A DNA stretch of 64,000 nucleotides. Origin: Tidjanibacter sp. GTDB lineage: Bacteria > Bacteroidota > Bacteroidia > Bacteroidales > Rikenellaceae. Every line of letters starts with the position of its first letter. Position 1 is the stretch's first letter. The stretch lies in NCBI GenBank assembly GCA_017466345.1, contig JAFTUI010000006.1, positions 29,112 to 93,111 on the forward strand, read 5' to 3'. Below, in pieces: positions 54,438 through 61,650 of this stretch. The notes under the pieces are model-generated. The model made no database searches, was not told the DNA's origin, and saw nothing but the letters and a program-made list of their open reading frames with translations. The position numbers were made by a program, and so were the translations under genes.

Positions 54438-56546
54438 ATGGCAAGAGAACTGAAAATCAGAGATTTAACTCTTCGTGACGGTCAGCAATCGGCTTTTGCT
54501 ACCCGTTTGAACCAGAATCAGGTGGAGCGTGTTTTGCCCTACTACAAAGACGCCGCTTTCTATGCAATGGAGGTTTGGGGCGGTGCAGTGCCCGACTCCG
54601 TGATGCGTTTCTTGGGCGAGAACCCCTGGAATCGTTTGGAGAGCATCAAGAAGGCTGTTGGCGATGTTTCGTACCTCACGGCTCTTTCGCGTGGTCGTAA
54701 CCTCTTCGGTTATGCTCCCTATGGCGATGATGTTATCGAGGGTTTCTCGCGCAACGCTATTGAGAGCGGTCTGGGTATTATGCGTATCTTTGACGCTCTG
54801 AACGATGTGGACAATGTTAAATCGACTATCAAGTATATCAAGAAGTATGGCGGTATTGCCGACTGCGCAGTGTGCTACACCGTAGACCCCAAATACCCCA
54901 AACTCTCCTTCTTCGATAAGCTCAAAGGCAAAAAGAATCCTGCCCCCGTCTTCACTGACGACTATTTCGTAGGTAAGGCTAAACAGTTGGCAGCACTTGG
55001 TGCCGATATGATTACCATCAAGGATATGAGCGGTCTTATTCCTCCCAAGAGGGTATATAACCTCATCAAGGCTATCAAGGCTAACGTATCCATCCCCGTA
55101 GATTTCCACACCCACTGTACTCCCGGTTACGGTTTGGCATCGGTTGTGGCTGCTATTGCTGCCGGTGTTGATATTGTTGATACCAACATCTGGAACTTTG
55201 CAGGTGGTCCCGCTGCTCCCGCACTCGAACTCGTTTACATCTTCGCAGGCAAGATGGATGTTAAGTTGGGCGTGAATATGGAGGCTGTGGCTAAAATCAA
55301 CGCTGAACTTTTGGGTATCCGCAAGGAGTTGGAGGCTTTCGATGCTGTTAAGAAGTTCCCCAAACCCTTCAATCCTCTCACCGACACCATTCCCGCCGAG
55401 ATTGAGGCTCAGTTCGACCGCGCAGTGAAGGCTGCTTACGCTGTTGATGAGGAGACCTTGATTGACGCTTGTCACAAGATTGAGGACTACTTCGGCTTCC
55501 CCAAACCCAACGAACTCGTGCAGAAAGCCGAGATTCCCGGCGGTATGTACACCAATATGGTGGCTCAGCTGAAAGGTTTGAAGAGCGAGCACCTCTTGGA
55601 GCCCGCAATGAAACTCATCCCCTCGGTTCGTTTGGATGCAGGTCTGCCTCCTCTGGTAACTCCTACCAGCCAGATTGTTGGCTCGCAGGCTGTTAGTTGC
55701 GCTATCGCTTTGGAGAAAGGCAAAGATAAATATGCTACCACTTCGACTCAGTTCGTAAACCTCGTCAAGGGCGAATATGGTCACACCCCCGTAGAGATTG
55801 ACCCCGAGTTCCGCTTGAAGATTGCCGGCACTCGCGAGGCTATCCCCTACGACACCTCGAAGAACCAGCGCCAGCCCAACCCCGTATTGGAGGATGCAGG
55901 TGGCGTAAGGCTCGCCGAGAACGAGAAAGAGGAACTCTTGCTCGAACTCTTCCCCGCTGTTGCTAAGGATTACCTCACCAAAGTGAAGAGAGAGCGTTGG
56001 GCTGCTACCAAACCCGCCGAGGCTCCCAAAGCTGAGGAGGCACCCAAAGCAGAGGCTGCAAAACCCGCCGAGAAAGTGAGCGGTAAGGTTGTTGCTGCTC
56101 CCCTGCCCGGCAAGGTTGTAGAACTTTGCGTGAAGGTTGGCGACACCGTTAAGGCTGGTCAGAAAGTGGCTGTCTTGGAGGCTATGAAGATGGAGAACGA
56201 CATTCCTTCGGAGCACAGTGGCGTAGTGAAACAGATTCTTGTTGCCGAGGGCGACACCTTGCAGGAGGGTCAGGCTATCCTCGTGATTGCTGACGCTGTG
56301 GAGGCCGCTCCCAAAGCCGCTGCTCCCGTAGCAGGCAAGAAGGTTACTGCTCCCCTGCCCGGTAAGGTGCTCGAAATCTGCGTCAAAGAGGGCGACACCG
56401 TTAAGAGCGGTCAGAAGGTAGCCGTTTTGGAGGCTATGAAGATGGAGAACGACATCCCCTCGGAGGTGGATGGCGTTGTTCGCCAGATTCTGGTTGCCGA
56501 GGGCGACACCTTGCAGGAGGGTCAGGCTATGTTTGTGGTTGAATAA
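54438..56546 (+). CDS. pyruvate/oxaloacetate carboxyltransferase with two biotinyl domains
   Basis: A 702-residue protein. Residues 1-460 form the carboxyltransferase TIM barrel with its partner domain: IRDLTLRDGQQS (metal-binding Asp), the carboxylated Lys in DMITIKDMSG, and metal-binding histidines in DFHTHCTPG. After an Ala/Pro/Glu hinge come two complete biotinyl domains, about 547-620 and 634-702, each with EAMKMEN; the biotin lysines are K584 and K668. It could be pyruvate carboxylase subunit B or an oxaloacetate decarboxylase alpha subunit. No biotin carboxylase, OadB or OadG is adjacent, so the reaction direction is open. Confidence 0.9.
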   Translation: MARELKIRDLTLRDGQQSAFATRLNQNQVERVLPYYKDAAFYAMEVWGGAVPDSVMRFLGENPWNRLESIKKAVGDVSYLTALSRGRNLFGYAPYGDDVIEGFSRNAIESGLGIMRIFDALNDVDNVKSTIKYIKKYGGIADCAVCYTVDPKYPKLSFFDKLKGKKNPAPVFTDDYFVGKAKQLAALGADMITIKDMSGLIPPKRVYNLIKAIKANVSIPVDFHTHCTPGYGLASVVAAIAAGVDIVDTNIWNFAGGPAAPALELVYIFAGKMDVKLGVNMEAVAKINAELLGIRKELEAFDAVKKFPKPFNPLTDTIPAEIEAQFDRAVKAAYAVDEETLIDACHKIEDYFGFPKPNELVQKAEIPGGMYTNMVAQLKGLKSEHLLEPAMKLIPSVRLDAGLPPLVTPTSQIVGSQAVSCAIALEKGKDKYATTSTQFVNLVKGEYGHTPVEIDPEFRLKIAGTREAIPYDTSKNQRQPNPVLEDAGGVRLAENEKEELLLELFPAVAKDYLTKVKRERWAATKPAEAPKAEEAPKAEAAKPAEKVSGKVVAAPLPGKVVELCVKVGDTVKAGQKVAVLEAMKMENDIPSEHSGVVKQILVAEGDTLQEGQAILVIADAVEAAPKAAAPVAGKKVTAPLPGKVLEICVKEGDTVKSGQKVAVLEAMKMENDIPSEVDGVVRQILVAEGDTLQEGQAMFVVE

Positions 56547-56561
56547 TCCATAAATAATACT

Positions 56562-56569
56562 TATCTTTG
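56562..56569 (+). promoter_or_regulatory. putative -7 box for galE
   Basis: TATCTTTG, 56 bp before galE, immediately followed by a long hairpin. Confidence 0.5.
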
Positions 56570-56611
56570 TGACCTACCTATCGGTACCGACCGACAGGTA
56601 GGTCACTTTTT
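56569..56611 (+). terminator. hairpin with T-run in the galE leader
   Basis: GTGACCTACCT (56569-56579) pairs perfectly with AGGTAGGTCAC (56596-56606), followed by TTTTT. The 16-nt loop holds the palindrome CGGTACCG. It can terminate the upstream gene, yet begins at the galE -7 box, so a galE transcript would start with it. Confidence 0.75.
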
Positions 56612-56625
56612 AAGCACAAGAAACA

Positions 56626-57654
56626 ATGGCAAAGGAACAAGTATTGGTATGTGGCGGTGCGGGCTATATCGGCTCCCACACCACCGTTGCGCTCATCGAG
56701 GCGGGCTATGATGTGGTAATTATTGACAACCTCTCCAACTCGGATATGGGTGCCGTGGAGGGCGTAAGAAAGATTACGGGCGTGGAGGTCCCCTTTGAGG
56801 AGGTGGACTGCTGCGACAAGGAGGCTCTAAGGGCTATCTTCAAGAAATACCCCTTCCGCTCGGCTATCCACTTTGCGGCATTCAAGGCTGTGGGAGAGAG
56901 CGTTGCGGAGCCACTGAAATACTACTCCAACAACCTCACTTCGTTCCTCAACCTCTTGGAGCTGATGCGTGAGGAGGGACGCGAGAACATTCTCTTCTCC
57001 TCTTCGGCTACGGTCTATGGCGAGCCCGAGGCACTGCCCGTTACGGAGCTTTCGCCCCGCCAACCTGCCACATCGCCCTATGGCAACACCAAACAGATGT
57101 GCGAGGATATATTGCGCGATACGACTACCGCCTACGAGGGTATTAAGGGTATAGCCCTGAGGTACTTCAACCCTATGGGCGCACACCCCTCGGCACTCAT
57201 CGGCGAGTTGCCCCGTGGCGTGCCCAACAACCTTGTACCCTTCATCACGCAGACCGCTGCGGGCGTTAGGGAGTGCCTCTCCATCTTCGGTGACGACTAC
57301 CCCACCCCCGATGGCACCTGCATCCGCGACTACATTGACGTTGTGGACTTGGCAAGGGCGCACGTTGCCGCCATCGGTCGCCTGATAGAGGGCAAGAATA
57401 AGGCAAAGTATGAGATTTTCAATGTCGGCACCGGTATGGGCACCTCTGTTATGGAACTTGTGAAGGCTTTTGAGAGGGTAAACAACCTCTCGCTCAACTA
57501 CCGCATTGCTGGCAGGAGGGCTGGCGACACTGTGGAGGTGTGGGCAGATACCTCACTTGCCAACGAGGAACTCGGCTGGAAAGCCACCCGCACCCTCGAC
57601 GAAACCCTCGCTGCCGCTTGGGCATGGGAGAAGAATGTGAGAGGGCTAAAATAG
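56626..57654 (+). CDS. galE: UDP-glucose 4-epimerase
   Basis: A 342-residue short-chain dehydrogenase-type epimerase. NAD site VCGGAGYIGSHTTVALIEAGYDVVIIDNLSNS; catalytic FSSSATVYGEP (Ser) and YGNTKQMCEDI (Tyr-x3-Lys); substrate-binding LRYFNPMGAHPSALIGE and GTCIRDYIDVVDLARAHVAAI. It interconverts UDP-glucose and UDP-galactose for surface glycans and galactose use. Full length, monocistronic. Confidence 0.96.
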   Translation: MAKEQVLVCGGAGYIGSHTTVALIEAGYDVVIIDNLSNSDMGAVEGVRKITGVEVPFEEVDCCDKEALRAIFKKYPFRSAIHFAAFKAVGESVAEPLKYYSNNLTSFLNLLELMREEGRENILFSSSATVYGEPEALPVTELSPRQPATSPYGNTKQMCEDILRDTTTAYEGIKGIALRYFNPMGAHPSALIGELPRGVPNNLVPFITQTAAGVRECLSIFGDDYPTPDGTCIRDYIDVVDLARAHVAAIGRLIEGKNKAKYEIFNVGTGMGTSVMELVKAFERVNNLSLNYRIAGRRAGDTVEVWADTSLANEELGWKATRTLDETLAAAWAWEKNVRGLK

Positions 57655-57672
57655 TTAAAAGTTGAAAGTTTT

Positions 57673-57694
57673 GTGCCTTTTTATAAAAAGGCAC
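57673..57694 (+). terminator. hairpin after galE
   Basis: GTGCCTTTTT (57673-57682) and AAAAAGGCAC (57685-57694). Two more small hairpins follow: GCGATAC/GTATCGC (57710-57726) and TGCGAG/CTCGCA (57737-57753). Confidence 0.5.
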
Positions 57695-57839
57695 CCCAAA
57701 AATTTTTAGGCGATACTGCGTATCGCTACTCTACCCTGCGAGATATGCTCGCAAAAAGAAAAGGAGGACATTTCGACAACCGTTATTTTATTTTAACTGA
57801 TTGATTTTCAGTGTTAGTTTTTACGAAAATTACGAAATC

Positions 57840-57856
57840 CTACATAAAAGACTACA
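57840..57856 (+). repeat. left direct repeat of the AT-rich island (att-like)
   Basis: CTACATAAAAGACTACA, repeated with one mismatch and in the same orientation at 60059-60075 (CTACATAGAAGACTACA). The DNA between is clearly AT-richer than its surroundings. Confidence 0.6.
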
Positions 57857-57965
57857 TGGAGGTCGTAATTAAGCCAAAAACTACGAATGCAAAGGTATAT
57901 AAATCTTTTGAAAGTAAAGTACTGAAATCAAGCATCTTCCAAAGATGCATTGTGAATAAACAAAG

Positions 57966-58015
57966 GTGGCGTATGAGCGAACTACAAGGTTCACTACATA
58001 CGCCACTAATTTTTT
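57966..58015 (+). terminator. terminator at the left end of the island
   Basis: GTGGCGTATG (57966-57975) pairs with CATACGCCAC (57997-58006), with partial pairing inside, then TTTTTT at 58010-58015. It would stop rightward transcription just before the convergent GNAT gene. The segment 57655-57965 holds small hairpins and the left repeat; I support no gene there. Confidence 0.7.
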
Positions 58016-58024
58016 GTGGGATTT

Positions 58025-58519
58025 TTAACGATAAAAATGCTTATACAGCTTACTGCTTTTTAGCCTTTTTGCAGTAATCCACATAAACACCTTTTTCTCA
58101 GAATATCTATACGGTACAAATCCTACACTTCTGTCAAAACGAATTGCGGCACGATTAGATTTATTACAATATGTCCTAACCTTTACACCCGATTCTAACA
58201 AGTGTTGTAGCATAAGTATATATCCACGATAATACATCAATGGACTTTCCCAACCGCCACCATGAATGGATACTTTCTCCCAATATCCCTCTTCATTGAA
58301 TAGATAAACAAATGCAATTGGCAGATTTGTTGCTCGATTTTTTAGTACCCAACATTGAACACTATTCACATATCGACCGACAAACTCAGCCCATTCCACA
58401 TCTGATTTAATATCTCCAGCTATTTGATTCCATTGTTCAACTGAGAACCTATCACAAAGATGAATATCCTTGTGATAAGGTTCCCAGACAACAAAAGAAT
58501 CTCCTATTACATCTTGCAT
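58025..58519 (-). CDS. GNAT-fold acetyltransferase-like protein
   Basis: A 164-residue protein. The C-terminal third reads VRTYCNKSNRAAIRFDRSVGFVPYRY, the N..A..F...GF pattern of GNAT motif B. Earlier beta strands (QCWVLKNRATNLPIAFVYLF; EKVSIHGGG) suit the fold, but a clear acetyl-CoA pyrophosphate loop (Q/RxxGxG/A) is not obvious, so it may be divergent. Rich in Ile, Asn, Lys and Tyr codons, unlike core genes nearby. It starts 1 bp after the preceding small gene, as the last gene of a four-gene leftward operon. Confidence 0.65.
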   Translation of the reverse strand: MQDVIGDSFVVWEPYHKDIHLCDRFSVEQWNQIAGDIKSDVEWAEFVGRYVNSVQCWVLKNRATNLPIAFVYLFNEEGYWEKVSIHGGGWESPLMYYRGYILMLQHLLESGVKVRTYCNKSNRAAIRFDRSVGFVPYRYSEKKVFMWITAKRLKSSKLYKHFYR

Positions 58520-58520
58520 T

Positions 58521-58730
58521 TTAAGGCAATGATGGAATCTTAGCTCTCAACTCTGCGATTTTAGCCTGTTTTTCGGCAATTTCATGCGCAACCTGACGGT
58601 GACATGCAGCGGTTTTAGGGAACAGTGATCTTTGCGCCACTGCTTGAGCCCGAAGTTTGGCAATATCTCCTTGTAATTTTGCAATTTGCTCTCTTGCCTC
58701 TGCTTTTGTTGTTGGTGATGACATTCCCAT
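58521..58730 (-). CDS. small coiled-coil protein, unknown
   Basis: A 69-residue protein, nearly all helical: two amphipathic segments (EAREQIAKLQGDIAKLRAQAVAQRS and VAHEIAEKQAKIAELRAKI) separated by SLFPKTAACHR, suggesting a helical hairpin. An ATG two codons downstream is an alternative start. Its 1-bp spacing to the next gene supports coupled expression. No known family recognised. Confidence 0.6.
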   Translation of the reverse strand: MGMSSPTTKAEAREQIAKLQGDIAKLRAQAVAQRSLFPKTAACHRQVAHEIAEKQAKIAELRAKIPSLP

Positions 58731-58804
58731 AATTATAAAGTATTTAATTATTTGCCTACTCTATTCAAGGTTTTCGGCATCTCCTTTATTTATTTGAATT
58801 AGAA

Positions 58805-59005
58805 CTATTCATCGTAATAATCTACCATATCTTCACACGCATCGATAGACTCAACAGAATCCATTACATCATCGATATTATCTGAGCAATCGATACTTAA
58901 TGTGTCATACAACTCACCATTGTTGTCATATATTGATTTCACCTCTGTTTGATTATTGTCTGGTTTTCTTGACGACATGGTTTTGAACCGTGCAAACAAC
59001 TTCAT
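58805..59005 (-). CDS. small highly acidic protein, unknown
   Basis: Read from ATG 59005 this is 66 residues (MKLFARFKTMSSRKPDNN); an ATG at 59014 adds three. A short basic N-terminus is followed by a strongly acidic tail (DCSDNIDDVMDSVESIDACED and further Asp/Glu), with very few basic residues after residue 25. It starts a few bases after the nuclease-like gene. Acidic partners of nucleases are often inhibitors or DNA mimics; here that is only a suggestion. Confidence 0.55.
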   Translation of the reverse strand: MKLFARFKTMSSRKPDNNQTEVKSIYDNNGELYDTLSIDCSDNIDDVMDSVESIDACEDMVDYYDE

Positions 59006-59021
59006 AAATATCATATTTAAG

Positions 59022-59633
59022 TTATAGTGTTACTATCATAAAATACTTATTTCCATGGTTGCTCCATTCTGCCTCATACACTGCCTTTAATTCAACTGTT
59101 TGTTGGCAATATGTGAAACATTGAGTAATGATCGGTGCAAGTTTAATTCCTGCAGTTGTGTGTGGATTTGCATAATTCTTATTATCCGTATACAGAATCT
59201 CATAGCACAACAATTGAGAATCCTTTTCTTTGTAGTGTTCTAAATTCTCAATATCCTTCATTATTGCAAAACGATTGTCTGCTACCGCCTCACTTGTTTT
59301 ATCGTACTTAAAATGTTTTAATTCTATTATAGCGTTAGCCGTGTCGTTGTTCTCCATAGAGAACCTCAATGAGATGTCGCAACGAGCTTGACCTTTTGAA
59401 CTCTTTGTTGTTGGAGAAATAGGTTGGATGGCTTCCAATTCTATTGAGAACCTATCCGTGCCGGCGAATTCATACAATTGCCCAACTTGTTTTAGGATTA
59501 CACCAAACTGCATTTGCAATGAAGCTTCATTTGCAATCTTGATATCACCGTATGCTATTTTATTGCACAAAATAGAATATGAGATTTTAACAATCTCTTT
59601 TAGGCGTTCTTGTGGAGTCTTCATGGTGTCCAT
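59022..59633 (-). CDS. PD-(D/E)XK nuclease-like protein
   Basis: About 203 residues from the ATG at 59633 (MDTMKTPQERLKEIV); ATG 59624 is also possible, and a TTG lies three codons upstream. The pattern fits a PD-(D/E)XK core: an N-terminal helix with Glu (KIANEASLQMQFGVILKQVG), Asp in a strand (GQARCDISLRF), then E-x-K in the next strand (NAIIELKHFKYDK). I recall similar uncharacterised proteins in genomic islands of other bacteria, but no function. AT-rich codon use. First gene of the island operon. Nuclease activity is an inference from the motif. Confidence 0.6.
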   Translation of the reverse strand: MDTMKTPQERLKEIVKISYSILCNKIAYGDIKIANEASLQMQFGVILKQVGQLYEFAGTDRFSIELEAIQPISPTTKSSKGQARCDISLRFSMENNDTANAIIELKHFKYDKTSEAVADNRFAIMKDIENLEHYKEKDSQLLCYEILYTDNKNYANPHTTAGIKLAPIITQCFTYCQQTVELKAVYEAEWSNHGNKYFMIVTL

Positions 59634-59713
59634 ATTGTACAAAATTCACTCATACAACTCCAATATGATAGGTTATAAAAACAAGAAAGTGTGGAGTTGA
59701 CTTTCGTTTATCT

Positions 59714-59872
59714 GTTGAAGGTTGTGGAAAGACCTGACCAAAACAAACGCTACAATGCCCCACACTTGGATAGTATGGGGTAGGTACGCAGAATGCGTAC
59801 AGCCACATAGCTATACAAGAAATGAGTGCTGTTCGTTTATCCTTTGGTCAAGAAAACTTCCACATTTTCAAC
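59714..59872 (-). ncRNA. candidate structured RNA upstream of the nuclease-like gene
   Basis: A long interrupted stem in four blocks: GTTGAA/TTCAAC (59714-59719 with 59867-59872), TGTGGAA/TTCCACA (59723-59729 with 59858-59864), TGACCAAA/TTTGGTCA (59735-59742 with 59843-59850), AAACG/CGTTT (59745-59749 with 59834-59838). Inside are hairpins CCCCA/TGGGG and GTACGCA-gaa-TGCGTAC (59784-59800). Strand is uncertain; a TAATTTTG box at 59927-59934 favours leftward transcription into the operon. No named class is recognised. Confidence 0.5.
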
Positions 59873-59926
59873 AAGGATAGAAGCGAAAACACTTTCTATA
59901 TGTCTGCTATTTATCCAATAGCACTA

Positions 59927-59954
59927 CAAAATTAAAAATAATTTCCGCAACAAA
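59927..59954 (-). promoter_or_regulatory. putative promoter of the island operon
   Basis: CAAAATTA (59927-59934) reads TAATTTTG leftward. CAAA at 59951-59954 gives a TTTG 16 bp upstream, shorter than the usual 19. A perfect small hairpin TGCTATT/AATAGCA (59905-59923) lies at the expected transcript start. Confidence 0.4.
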
Positions 59955-59989
59955 CAACACTCTTGTGGGACATTGTTCAGTGAGAATAT

Positions 59990-60020
59990 AAAAAGTGCCT
60001 CTCACAATAATGTGAAAGGC
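59990..60020 (-). terminator. terminator at the right end of the island
   Basis: GCCT-TCACA (59997-60006) pairs with TGTGA-AGGC (60011-60020) with one mismatch; leftward it is followed by TTTTT. Confidence 0.7.
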
Positions 60021-60058
60021 AAAATTAATAAGGTGTATTTATTTACACTTAATTTAGA

Positions 60059-60075
60059 CTACATAGAAGACTACA
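60059..60075 (+). repeat. right direct repeat of the AT-rich island (att-like)
   Basis: CTACATAGAAGACTACA, 16 of 17 matches to 57840-57856. Confidence 0.6.
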
Positions 60076-60163
60076 CACAAAGGGTAAAATCAGCTCTCAA
60101 TCCATTTACACACAAAAAAGTCGTTTCACAAGCCTATGCCATAATTCACTGATACTCAACGAA

Positions 60164-60193
60164 ATCGGCGGTGAATTATATTTCACCGCCGAT
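60164..60193 (-). terminator. hairpin after the RecD-like helicase gene
   Basis: ATCGGCGGTGAA (60164-60175) pairs perfectly with TTCACCGCCGAT (60182-60193), 12 bp beyond the stop. The T-run is weak. Confidence 0.65.
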
Positions 60194-60204
60194 GAAGGGT
60201 TGCC

Positions 60205-61650
60205 TTAAAAGTCCTCCTTTTCGTATGTGGTAGGGTCAAAGAAACTCTCATCGAAATTGACAAGATACACCTCCGAGGTGGCTCGTGAAATGGCGGTGTA
60301 GAGCCAGCGCAGGAACTCCCTATTCATTCGCTCCTCGCCAAAGAGCAGCCTATCAATAAAGACCGCGCTCCACTGTCCACCCTGCGCCTTGTGGCATGTT
60401 ACGGCGTAGGCAAATTTCACCTGCATAGCGTTGTAGTACTCGTTCTCGCGCACCTCGCGCATACGCTTGGGCTTGCTCTTAATATCCTGATAATCACCCT
60501 CAACGGCATAGAACAGTTCCTTCATCTGCTCGCGCGAGAGCGCAGGTGTAAAGGAGTTCAGCGTGTCGAGCAGCAGGTTGCACTCCACCTCGTAGTCGTC
60601 GTAGTCGGGGAAGCGTAGTGTCGCCTCGGCAAAGCGGAAGCCATAGAGATTTTTGAAACGGCGTATGCGGCGAAGCTGTGCCACATCGCCATTGGCAATG
60701 AAGGCAGCCTTTGCCTCCTCGTCGCGCTCGGTATAGTGGTAGTTGTTCTTCACGACCATCAGCATATCGCCCGAGTCAATCTCCTCCTCGGCATACAGAA
60801 CCCGCGCACGAATACCCTGGTTGAAATGTACTGCTCGTTTGTTGCTACGGGTGATGACAATAACCTCGTCCTTGCCATATTTGGAGTAGCACTCCTCGAC
60901 CTTCTCCATAAACTCGCCGCCCGATATGGCCTTGAAGTCGGGATAACTCATATCGAGGAGTGGTGTGTCGTAGATGCGGTTCTCAATCATACAGCGTATC
61001 ATCGTGGCATTGAAGAGGATGCCGCTCTCCTCCTCTTGGCGCACCACCTCATCGAGAGTGTTGTAACTCACCGAGCCATAGATGGCCATCTTGCGAGGAT
61101 CGAGGGCGGGCGATAGTTCGTGTCCTACGGGTGGCAACTGCGCCGAGTCGCCCACGAACATTATGCGACAACGCTGTCCCTGACGCACATACTCAAAGAG
61201 GTCATCGAGCAACGAGCCTGAGCCAAAGAGCGACCCCTCATCGGTGTAGTCGGCAATCATCGAAGCCTCATCGACAATGAAAACAGCATCCTTCTCGCGG
61301 TTGAAATTAAGGTCGAACTTGGAGTCGAAACCTCCCGAGGTGCGCTCGCGGTAGATACGCTTATGGATGGTGTGTGCAGGCGTGGAGGGAGCCATTTGGG
61401 TCATAACCTTTGCGGCACGCCCCGTAGGGGCAAGCAAAATGGGTTTGAGGTTCAACTCTTTAAGCACCTCAACAAATGTGGCAATGAGAGTTGTCTTGCC
61501 CGTACCGGCATAGCCATTAAGGATGAAAATACGCTCATAATCTTCATCCACAATCCACTCTGCCAGAGATTCTATAATTTTTTTCTGCCCAAAAGTTGGA
61601 GTAAATTGAAATTTGCCGTAAATTTGGGACGCAATGTGCTCACTAAGCAT
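60205..61650 (-). CDS. RecD/Dda-like superfamily 1 DNA helicase
   Basis: A 481-residue ATPase. Walker A FILNGYAGTGKTTLIATF; motif Ia LAPTGRAAKVM; TPAHTIHKRIYR; Walker B VFIVDEASMIAD; motif III MFVGDSAQLPPVG; C-terminal UvrD-like motifs YAVTCHKAQGGQWSAVFID and LYTAISRATSEVYLVN. It lacks the long N-terminal region of RecD2 (about 700 residues), so it is closer to the short Dda/Pif1-like helicases common in Bacteroidota. Probably a 5'-3' helicase in repair or fork restart. It is divergent from the next gene, with a TAAGTTTG box at 61672-61679. Confidence 0.9.
   Translation of the reverse strand: MLSEHIASQIYGKFQFTPTFGQKKIIESLAEWIVDEDYERIFILNGYAGTGKTTLIATFVEVLKELNLKPILLAPTGRAAKVMTQMAPSTPAHTIHKRIYRERTSGGFDSKFDLNFNREKDAVFIVDEASMIADYTDEGSLFGSGSLLDDLFEYVRQGQRCRIMFVGDSAQLPPVGHELSPALDPRKMAIYGSVSYNTLDEVVRQEEESGILFNATMIRCMIENRIYDTPLLDMSYPDFKAISGGEFMEKVEECYSKYGKDEVIVITRSNKRAVHFNQGIRARVLYAEEEIDSGDMLMVVKNNYHYTERDEEAKAAFIANGDVAQLRRIRRFKNLYGFRFAEATLRFPDYDDYEVECNLLLDTLNSFTPALSREQMKELFYAVEGDYQDIKSKPKRMREVRENEYYNAMQVKFAYAVTCHKAQGGQWSAVFIDRLLFGEERMNREFLRWLYTAISRATSEVYLVNFDESFFDPTTYEKEDF

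Follow-up and report, generated by a model that had tools for sequence, protein, structure and literature searches.

A putative integrase-free mobile cassette in Tidjanibacter and its candidate phage-type integrase

The stretch of DNA analysed here (the window) comprises 64,000 nt of contig JAFTUI010000006.1 from Tidjanibacter sp. (GCA_017466345.1, the source genome) and contains, at a galE-helicase junction, an AT-rich island with a four-gene leftward operon. Judged by comparison with its relatives, this island is an integrase-free mobile cassette of a widespread element family. Its nature is probably that of a non-autonomous integrative cargo cassette, which carries the attachment ends of a phage-type tyrosine integrase and is moved by such an enzyme in trans. 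Elements of this kind suggest how a few genes at a time, among them restriction-modification and candidate defence genes, may spread among gut Bacteroidales without a recombinase of their own, and their insertion sites can spare host genes. The comparison also names a candidate helper integrase and places the ends of the element to within a few bases.

Extent of the island and variety of its relatives

The original prediction took as the edges of the island two 17-bp direct repeats, CTACATARAAGACTACA, which are indeed present in the same orientation, with one mismatch between the copies and a spacing of 2219 bp. These are the only two matches in the window at up to 3 mismatches (0.15 expected). 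The 17-mer is not common genome-wide, the source genome holding three matches at up to 2 mismatches (one for the reversed control pattern), of which the third lies inside a second element on contig C8. As edges, the repeats were not upheld. Comparison with other copies, of which that in a genome of another family of the same order (G475) provides the best proof, moved the borders out to approximately 57775 and 60204, which makes the island, at ∼2.4 kb, longer than first described and leaves the 17-mers 65 bp (left) and 129 bp (right) inside the termini. Being internal to both ends, the 17-mer was ruled out as the crossover site or attachment (att) core. The terminal arms are short inverted repeats, GACAACC and GGTTGCC in the window.

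Other features of that prediction stood. The G+C content is 0.33–0.39 inside the island, as compared with 0.52–0.58 to the left (56000-57749) and 0.53–0.55 to the right (60250-61499). Terminators are present at both ends, on the right as a hairpin at 60164-60193 and on the left, recognised by eye only, at ∼57964-58013. No integrase, recombinase or other mobility gene was recognised among the open reading frames (ORFs) of the island, as assessed from the ORF list and a domain scan.

The whole element recurs in G475 with 85% identity over 2432 bp (window 57786-60199), the identity stopping near both termini and the flanks being unrelated to those in the window. In a congener (G018), the four genes, an RNA of the DUF805b family and a left end without the 17-mer were found at a third place, which adjoins a thioredoxin-like gene (by eye); here the contig ends within the nuclease gene. 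The same cargo unit accordingly occupies three unrelated positions, each in a different species, and one of these species falls outside the family.

An empty site with one 17-mer left, which had been anticipated at the galE-helicase junction, was not found there; this junction was readable with galE in two of 20 helicase loci (L040 and L041), in which another gene, and no element, is present. Nor was the element seen in any of nine helicase 3′ flanks inspected by eye, five of which are short contig-end pieces. The same helicase 3′ end occurs with an intact hairpin in G022 and G019, and there is no left-end match anywhere in either genome.

The left-end pattern (up to 3 mismatches) was detected in 53 of 269 genomes of the bacterial family, the reversed control giving 0 in every row. 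Of the 39 stretches with an exact match in a named collection, 29 carry the label Alistipes or Rikenellaceae, and a ruminant gut sample is named in 27 of the titles. Among the 48 stretches examined, 13 places had a left end together with a right 17-mer (the C8 element included, and L109 repeating L108 in another genome). With duplicates counted once and the window added, this yields 13 distinct two-ended elements, with ends 1.3–4.9 kb apart; in the tabulation of these distances, the left coordinate of the window is 15 bp off. The other 12 all match the window both on the left and on the right, the right-hand match of L114 extending only over the RNA module. Identity to the left end of the window is 76–92% over 136–271 bp in 11 of these 12 and covers 58 bp only in the C8 element, whose left 56-bp and right 93-bp ends are 86% identical to those of the window.

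Unrelated cargo between the same ends, which the original prediction had looked for in other strains, was seen across the two-ended elements. The C8 element carries one 303-aa lipoprotein-like gene, and the cargo of L095 and L102 is also lipoprotein-like. A large leucine-rich-repeat surface protein (by eye) is found in L100, L111 and L124, a P-type ATPase with an AraC regulator in L113, a radical-SAM protein in L127 and a DUF2779 protein in L108. Defence genes are carried by other members of the family: in L118 (5864-7773, from G150) the cargo consists of an EcoRV-family restriction enzyme and a D12 methyltransferase (Pfam E 2.6e-103 and 3.4e-17), and in L107 of an AAA_14/DUF4143 protein, which matches the candidate defence family PDC-S01, plus a methyltransferase. 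The L118 genes have the form of a compact type II restriction-modification pair. No recombinase or integrase was recognised in the 13 two-ended elements. Comparison shows, then, that the ends are fixed, that the element has moved between sites, species and families, and that its relatives have exchanged cargo, in keeping with the non-autonomous cargo unit originally proposed.

Target hairpins and the candidate helper integrase

In the window, the flanks just outside the element, GAAAAGGAGGAC on the left and GTCCTCCTTTTC on the right, are inverted repeats of each other, perfect over 12 bp, the right one being the end of the helicase gene. Joined with the native loop, these flanks fold at −21.0 kcal/mol; the unbroken hairpin at the same helicase end folds at −13.7 kcal/mol in G022 and −22.3 kcal/mol in G019. 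The flanks of L107 constitute a 24-bp perfect repeat. Across the 13 elements, the flank inverted-repeat score had a mean of 10.85 versus 6.5 for permuted flanks, a value reached by 0 of 20,000 permutations (in the scoring and the permutation test, the flank stretch of the window was 15 bp off). Seven of the 13 flank pairs lay above the 95th percentile of 156 mismatched pairs, and six lay above the control maximum. Statistically, the element family lands in host inverted repeats that resemble terminator hairpins. Crossover takes place at or close to the loop, and apparently within the loop itself.

The left and right spacers that adjoin the element are unequal in the window (ATTTC and TTAAA) and in L107 (CAGTG and TAAAA), as they are, when delimited by eye, in L095, L100, L108, L113, L118 and L124. 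Capture of the Xer/dif type was rejected because the target sequences vary from site to site (by eye).

The original prediction assigned mobilisation to a recombinase encoded elsewhere, and the right end does occur beside a phage-type integrase. In the viral contigs L091 and L093, the right end and its 17-mer are located ∼64 bp upstream of the gene for a 425-aa tyrosine integrase, near a terminase gene. PHROG models matched the L093 proteins as integrase (7.7e-13), large terminase (8.2e-28) and head-tail adaptor (4.5e-4). A third viral contig, L172, contains the right-end pattern with 2 mismatches. Exact pattern matches in L090, L092 and L094 were taken as chance, apparently lying within coding sequence.

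A search with the integrase across the bacterial family returned 17 matching places in 15 of 269 genomes. The right 17-mer (up to 3 mismatches) was directly upstream at 8 of 8 loci with 76–86% identity and at 0 of 9 loci with 36–63% identity. Given this presence at all close loci and none of the distant ones, the integrase family that uses these ends has very likely been identified, and the 425-aa enzyme would be expected to act on them. The source genome contains no match to the integrase at E ≤ 1e-60, and a search of solved structures with this protein found nothing.

The island would accordingly be mobilised in trans by the integrase of phage-like elements, which may bind the 17-mer repeats as arm sites and excise a circle through the ∼7-bp terminal arms. 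The circle would be inserted with a coupling sequence of 5–7 bp, for which, as in Tn916 and CTnDOT, a match is not required. The cargo operon would be read leftward from its promoter, preceded by a structured leader RNA containing a pseudoknot, a leader common to many accessory genes of these bacteria.

Several observations weigh against this model. Neither excision nor a circular form nor transfer was observed. None of the elements with the integrase could be followed over its full length, and the integrase is thus not seen on one contig together with both ends. Neither the C8 element nor the G018 copy has the left 17-mer. Flank repeats fail the score in L102, L108, L111, L114 and L127 (5 to 7) and in L124 (8), and stems that pair a host flank with an element arm are scarcely more frequent than in the control (6 of 75 at ≥7 versus 2.4%). 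In G475, the spacer TTTAG is identical on both sides, which would also fit target duplication, and the flanks are without a clear repeat by score (5), an imperfect stem beside the spacer being visible by eye only.

Loss of function offers one alternative, in which the elements are decayed remnants of former phage copies or of integrative and conjugative elements (ICEs) that have lost their integrase and are immobile, that is, cis-mobilizable elements (CIMEs) in the strict sense. The lack of an integrase match in the source genome at the threshold above, the shortness of the elements and the many left ends for which the stretch examined shows no right 17-mer would all agree with decay. This alternative is nevertheless unlikely, given that the same integrase-free unit recurs with its cargo in three species, each time at an unrelated site and once beyond the family, and that all four genes have ratios of nonsynonymous to synonymous substitution rates (dN/dS) below 1. 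Separate decay of the copies is improbable because the same gene set recurs between the same ends.

The exchange of cargo between fixed ends and the use of hairpin targets of unrelated sequence might also be explained by an integron-like system, with cassettes scattered singly and recombined at folded hairpins. The integrase is weakly similar to the integron integrase model TIGR02249 (E 0.0027), but its 17 bits against a cut-off of 265 do not mark it as an integron-type enzyme, and the elements stand singly, such that this explanation has a low probability. Slightly lower still is that of a DDE transposon or a unit resembling a miniature inverted-repeat transposable element (MITE), whose termini are inverted arms and whose insertion duplicates 5 bp of the target. 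Such a unit would account for the inverted terminal arms and for TTTAG on both sides in G475, but the spacers in the window and in seven other elements (by eye) differ and are not target-site duplications. Moreover, the ends are long, unlike each other and mostly furnished with direct 17-mers, and all 8 close loci have a tyrosine integrase next to this same right end.

Mobilisation in trans of a cassette with integrase attachment ends is thus the preferred reading. A bolder extension of it, offered tentatively and with a good measure of doubt, is a cassette economy without an integron. Here, a phage integrase would shuttle free-standing cassettes to the loops of terminator hairpins, recognised by inverted-repeat shape more than by sequence, and the cassettes would often carry a common leader RNA that co-regulates surface and defence genes genome-wide.

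Cargo genes and RNAs of the island

The predicted four leftward genes are present, and their order is kept in two other species (G018 and G475). They are, from the evolutionary comparison, real genes under selection, since dN/dS is below 1 in both comparisons. The values versus G018 were 0.15 for the nuclease (only 120 codons available), 0.25 for the acidic protein, 0.31 for the coiled-coil protein and 0.28 for the GNAT-like protein; those versus G475 were 0.13, 0.27, 0.43 and 0.26, respectively.

The labels given to these genes in the original prediction fared less evenly. The PD-(D/E)XK-like protein matches Pfam PDDEXK_9 below the curated cut-off (E 4.5e-4; 20.6 bits versus 25.5), and its D...ELK stretch is kept in three species. 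Its identity is 85% in G475 and 89% over the available part in G018. The protein was found in 2 of 61 genomes, the source included, and no relative was found in phages. The GNAT-like label is the more tentative of the two. The window protein has no Pfam match, and two of three homologues scored 15.7 and 13.1 bits (cut-off 20.7), the third giving none; the best match was to Acetyltransf_1 (E 0.019), and neither the window protein nor these homologues reached the curated cut-off for assignment as a GNAT acetyltransferase. An alignment of GNAT-like proteins gave chance-level matches only against solved structures, and the corresponding profile found no relative in viral contigs. As to the possible defence or anti-element role raised in the original prediction, PADLOC, applied to the four cargo proteins, left three without a match and gave a chance-level match for the fourth (LmuB, E = 0.031).

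A different genus of the family (G269; L217, 995-1986) has a pair of small coiled-coil genes and, after them, a gene for a GNAT-like homologue, placed between terminase-like and portal-like genes (by eye), an arrangement that looks by eye like the 3′ half of the window operon in the form of a phage accessory unit. A phage-related role of the cargo genes in the window is plausible, given the position of these homologues.

Two RNAs, which are separate features, are associated with the operon (Table 1). The smaller, a DUF805b RNA, lies within the operon between the acidic and coiled-coil genes, 22 nt ahead of the coiled-coil start codon. It is also present in the G018 copy (L033, 1239-1271, minus strand), and it was the single match found in the source genome, for which 150 of 833 first-look candidates were scored. 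No papers on DUF805b or DUF805 RNA were found in the literature searched.

The larger corresponds to the structured upstream region of the original prediction, which was confirmed in that the minus strand at 59660-59945 folds with z = −6.5. DNA related to the stretch 59650-60020 was found in 181 of 269 genomes of the family (76 of the 111 good ones), and copies of the leader besides that in the window include L219–L258. A consensus structure from 35 aligned copies contains 72 pairs, 29 of which show compensating changes, and 96.8% of cells pair; two-sided changes amounted to 214 cells, as compared with 65.9 in shuffles and 17–32 in slid controls. This alignment (A1) leaves out L245 and L116 (cut by contig end), L220 (the same place as L112) and L218 (the same as the window); alignment A5 omits these rows plus L227 and L238.

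CAACUCC, with which the core ends, pairs with GGAGUUG some 18–34 nt downstream to form a second helix, and a small hairpin encloses GGAGUUG. In 37 of 44 sequences (alignment A6, which leaves out L226 and L229, having no 6-bp complement, and the distant L254–L258), 7 of 11 pairs were changed on both sides, corresponding to 39 cells versus 10.1 in shuffles. A second helix of at least 6 bp is available in 40 of the 44 sequences, versus 28% of shuffles and 64% of crossed pairs.

The covariance model scored 8 places in the source genome, which represent at least six loci because two pairs look like assembly duplicates. The stretches C7/C18 and C19/C27 are near-identical and are probably duplicates arising in this metagenome-assembled genome (MAG). 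Matches were obtained in 26 of 295 genomes drawn from the order, the source included, and all 47 places listed for the model score at least 36 bits. True copies are matched in antisense at up to 31.5 bits (E 3e-5); a match in L164 (27.1 bits) falls below this level and was not considered meaningful. The integrase-bearing viral contig L172 contains a match of 51 bits (E 1e-9). The exact leader RNA pattern had no match in viral contigs, and no similar DNA was found in the phages or plasmids searched.

In the loci inspected, the leader RNA is located upstream of accessory genes, mainly those for secreted lipoproteins and surface proteins (by eye), and also upstream of a gene for a GIY-YIG-like protein (by eye). 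In one source-genome locus (L265, 2544-4652, on C21), the leader RNA precedes a methyltransferase-like gene and a gene whose DUF262-like product has an HNH-like end; judged by eye, these two may constitute a defence pair. In L225 and L227, which come from two genomes, what is by eye the same host gene is followed by the leader RNA and then by different cargo genes, as if the cargo behind the RNA had been exchanged. The model matched in only 5 of the 13 two-ended elements, and the leader RNA is therefore not a general part of the element.

The leader RNA presumably acts in cis to regulate the cargo operon, with a trans-acting RNA as the alternative. Scans with Rfam 15 of the window and the G018 copy gave no match to it over the gathering score. 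Judged against Rfam 15 and the literature searched, this ∼290-nt leader, with its strong covariation and at least six loci in the source genome, would add a new, undescribed RNA family; the candidate RNAs, thousands in number, that PMC8040213 is said to report could include it.

Table 1. Coordinates of the element, its target site, genes and RNAs in the window
Feature	Position	Strand	Remarks
Left half of host target hairpin, GAAAAGGAGGAC	57758..57769	.	Inverted repeat with 60207-60222
Left coupling (overlap) sequence	57770..57774	.	Differs from the right one; by eye versus other elements
Left end of element	57775..58018	.	Arm, T-rich stretch, conserved TTGATTTTCAGTGTTAGTTTTTACGAAAAT, 17-mer, leftward terminator (by eye)
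Left 17-mer	57840..57856	+	Probable integrase arm-type site; missing from the C8 element and G018 copy
GNAT-like protein, 164 aa	58025..58519	-	Tentative; homologues in 6 of 269 family genomes including the source
Basic coiled-coil-like protein, 69 aa	58521..58730	-	Ends conserved, middle variable
DUF805b RNA (Rfam RF02914)	58753..58787	-	35 nt; 47.9 bits, gathering score 35.6
Acidic protein, 69 aa, pI 4.1	58805..59014	-	ORF list, species comparison
PD-(D/E)XK-like protein, 206 aa	59022..59642	-	D...ELK motif (by eye); Pfam PDDEXK_9 below cut-off
Structured leader RNA	59640..59930	-	5′ hairpin, core 59685-59896, downstream pseudoknot partner 59655-59662
TAATTTTG	59927..59934	-	Fits TAnnTTTG, the -7 promoter consensus of Bacteroidetes; RNA alignment A1
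Right end of element	60036..60204	.	17-mer, AAAAGTCGTTTCACAA block, hairpin 60164-60193, arm GGTTGCC 60198-60204
Right 17-mer	60059..60075	+	Probable integrase arm-type site
Right coupling sequence	60205..60209	.	Host-native, contains helicase stop codon; matches loop of G022 hairpin
Right half of host target hairpin	60210..60222	.	Within helicase gene 3′ end; inverted repeat, fold

Comparison with known mobile systems

Tn916 and CTnDOT are moved by a tyrosine recombinase and have short coupling sequences that differ at their two ends. The island family shares with these elements, and with Tn4555, which is compared with Tn916 in the part consulted of PMC5704250, the use of many target sites, unequal coupling sequences (by eye in the window and seven other elements, those of G475 being equal) and a tyrosine recombinase. 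It differs in that the island is without an integrase and in that the target is a terminator-like inverted repeat rather than an AT-rich or short consensus site.

Phage-inducible chromosomal islands (PICIs) are phage satellites that depend on a helper. Small size, swapped defence cargo and a presumed helper dependence liken the island family to such satellites, whereas the island is without a recognised integrase, phage-interference gene or packaging gene. The integrase of its own expected of a PICI-like element was not found among the ORFs of the window. The jumbo-phage islands described in the part consulted of PMC12595487 do encode their own integrase and are located at tmRNA.

Integron cassettes and clusters of attC sites lacking integron integrases (CALINs; part consulted of PMC11389934) are similar to the island in having cargo without a recombinase of its own, a tyrosine recombinase supplied in trans, which for the island is a prediction, and an involvement of hairpins. 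By contrast, the island family consists of single units at unrelated sites, and its integrase is far from the integron model. In the literature searched, which included the parts consulted of PMC11389934, PMC8138268, PMC5704250 and PMC12595487, no description was found of a terminator-targeting tyrosine recombinase, of integrase-less elements of this kind or of this leader RNA.

A CIME is an element from which integration and transfer genes have been lost and in which attL and attR are kept (part consulted of PMC5704250). The island conforms to this description, having no recognised integration or transfer genes, keeping its attachment ends and presumably needing an integrase in trans. It differs in that its family recurs free-standing at many sites with exchanged cargo, and in that there is no tandem ICE in the window and the related integrase adjoins phage genes. 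CIMEs may equally descend from an ICE or from an integrative and mobilizable element (IME) with the same ends, and the assignment of the island to this class is tentative. In its predicted mode of action, the island is like a trans-mobilised satellite or CIME.

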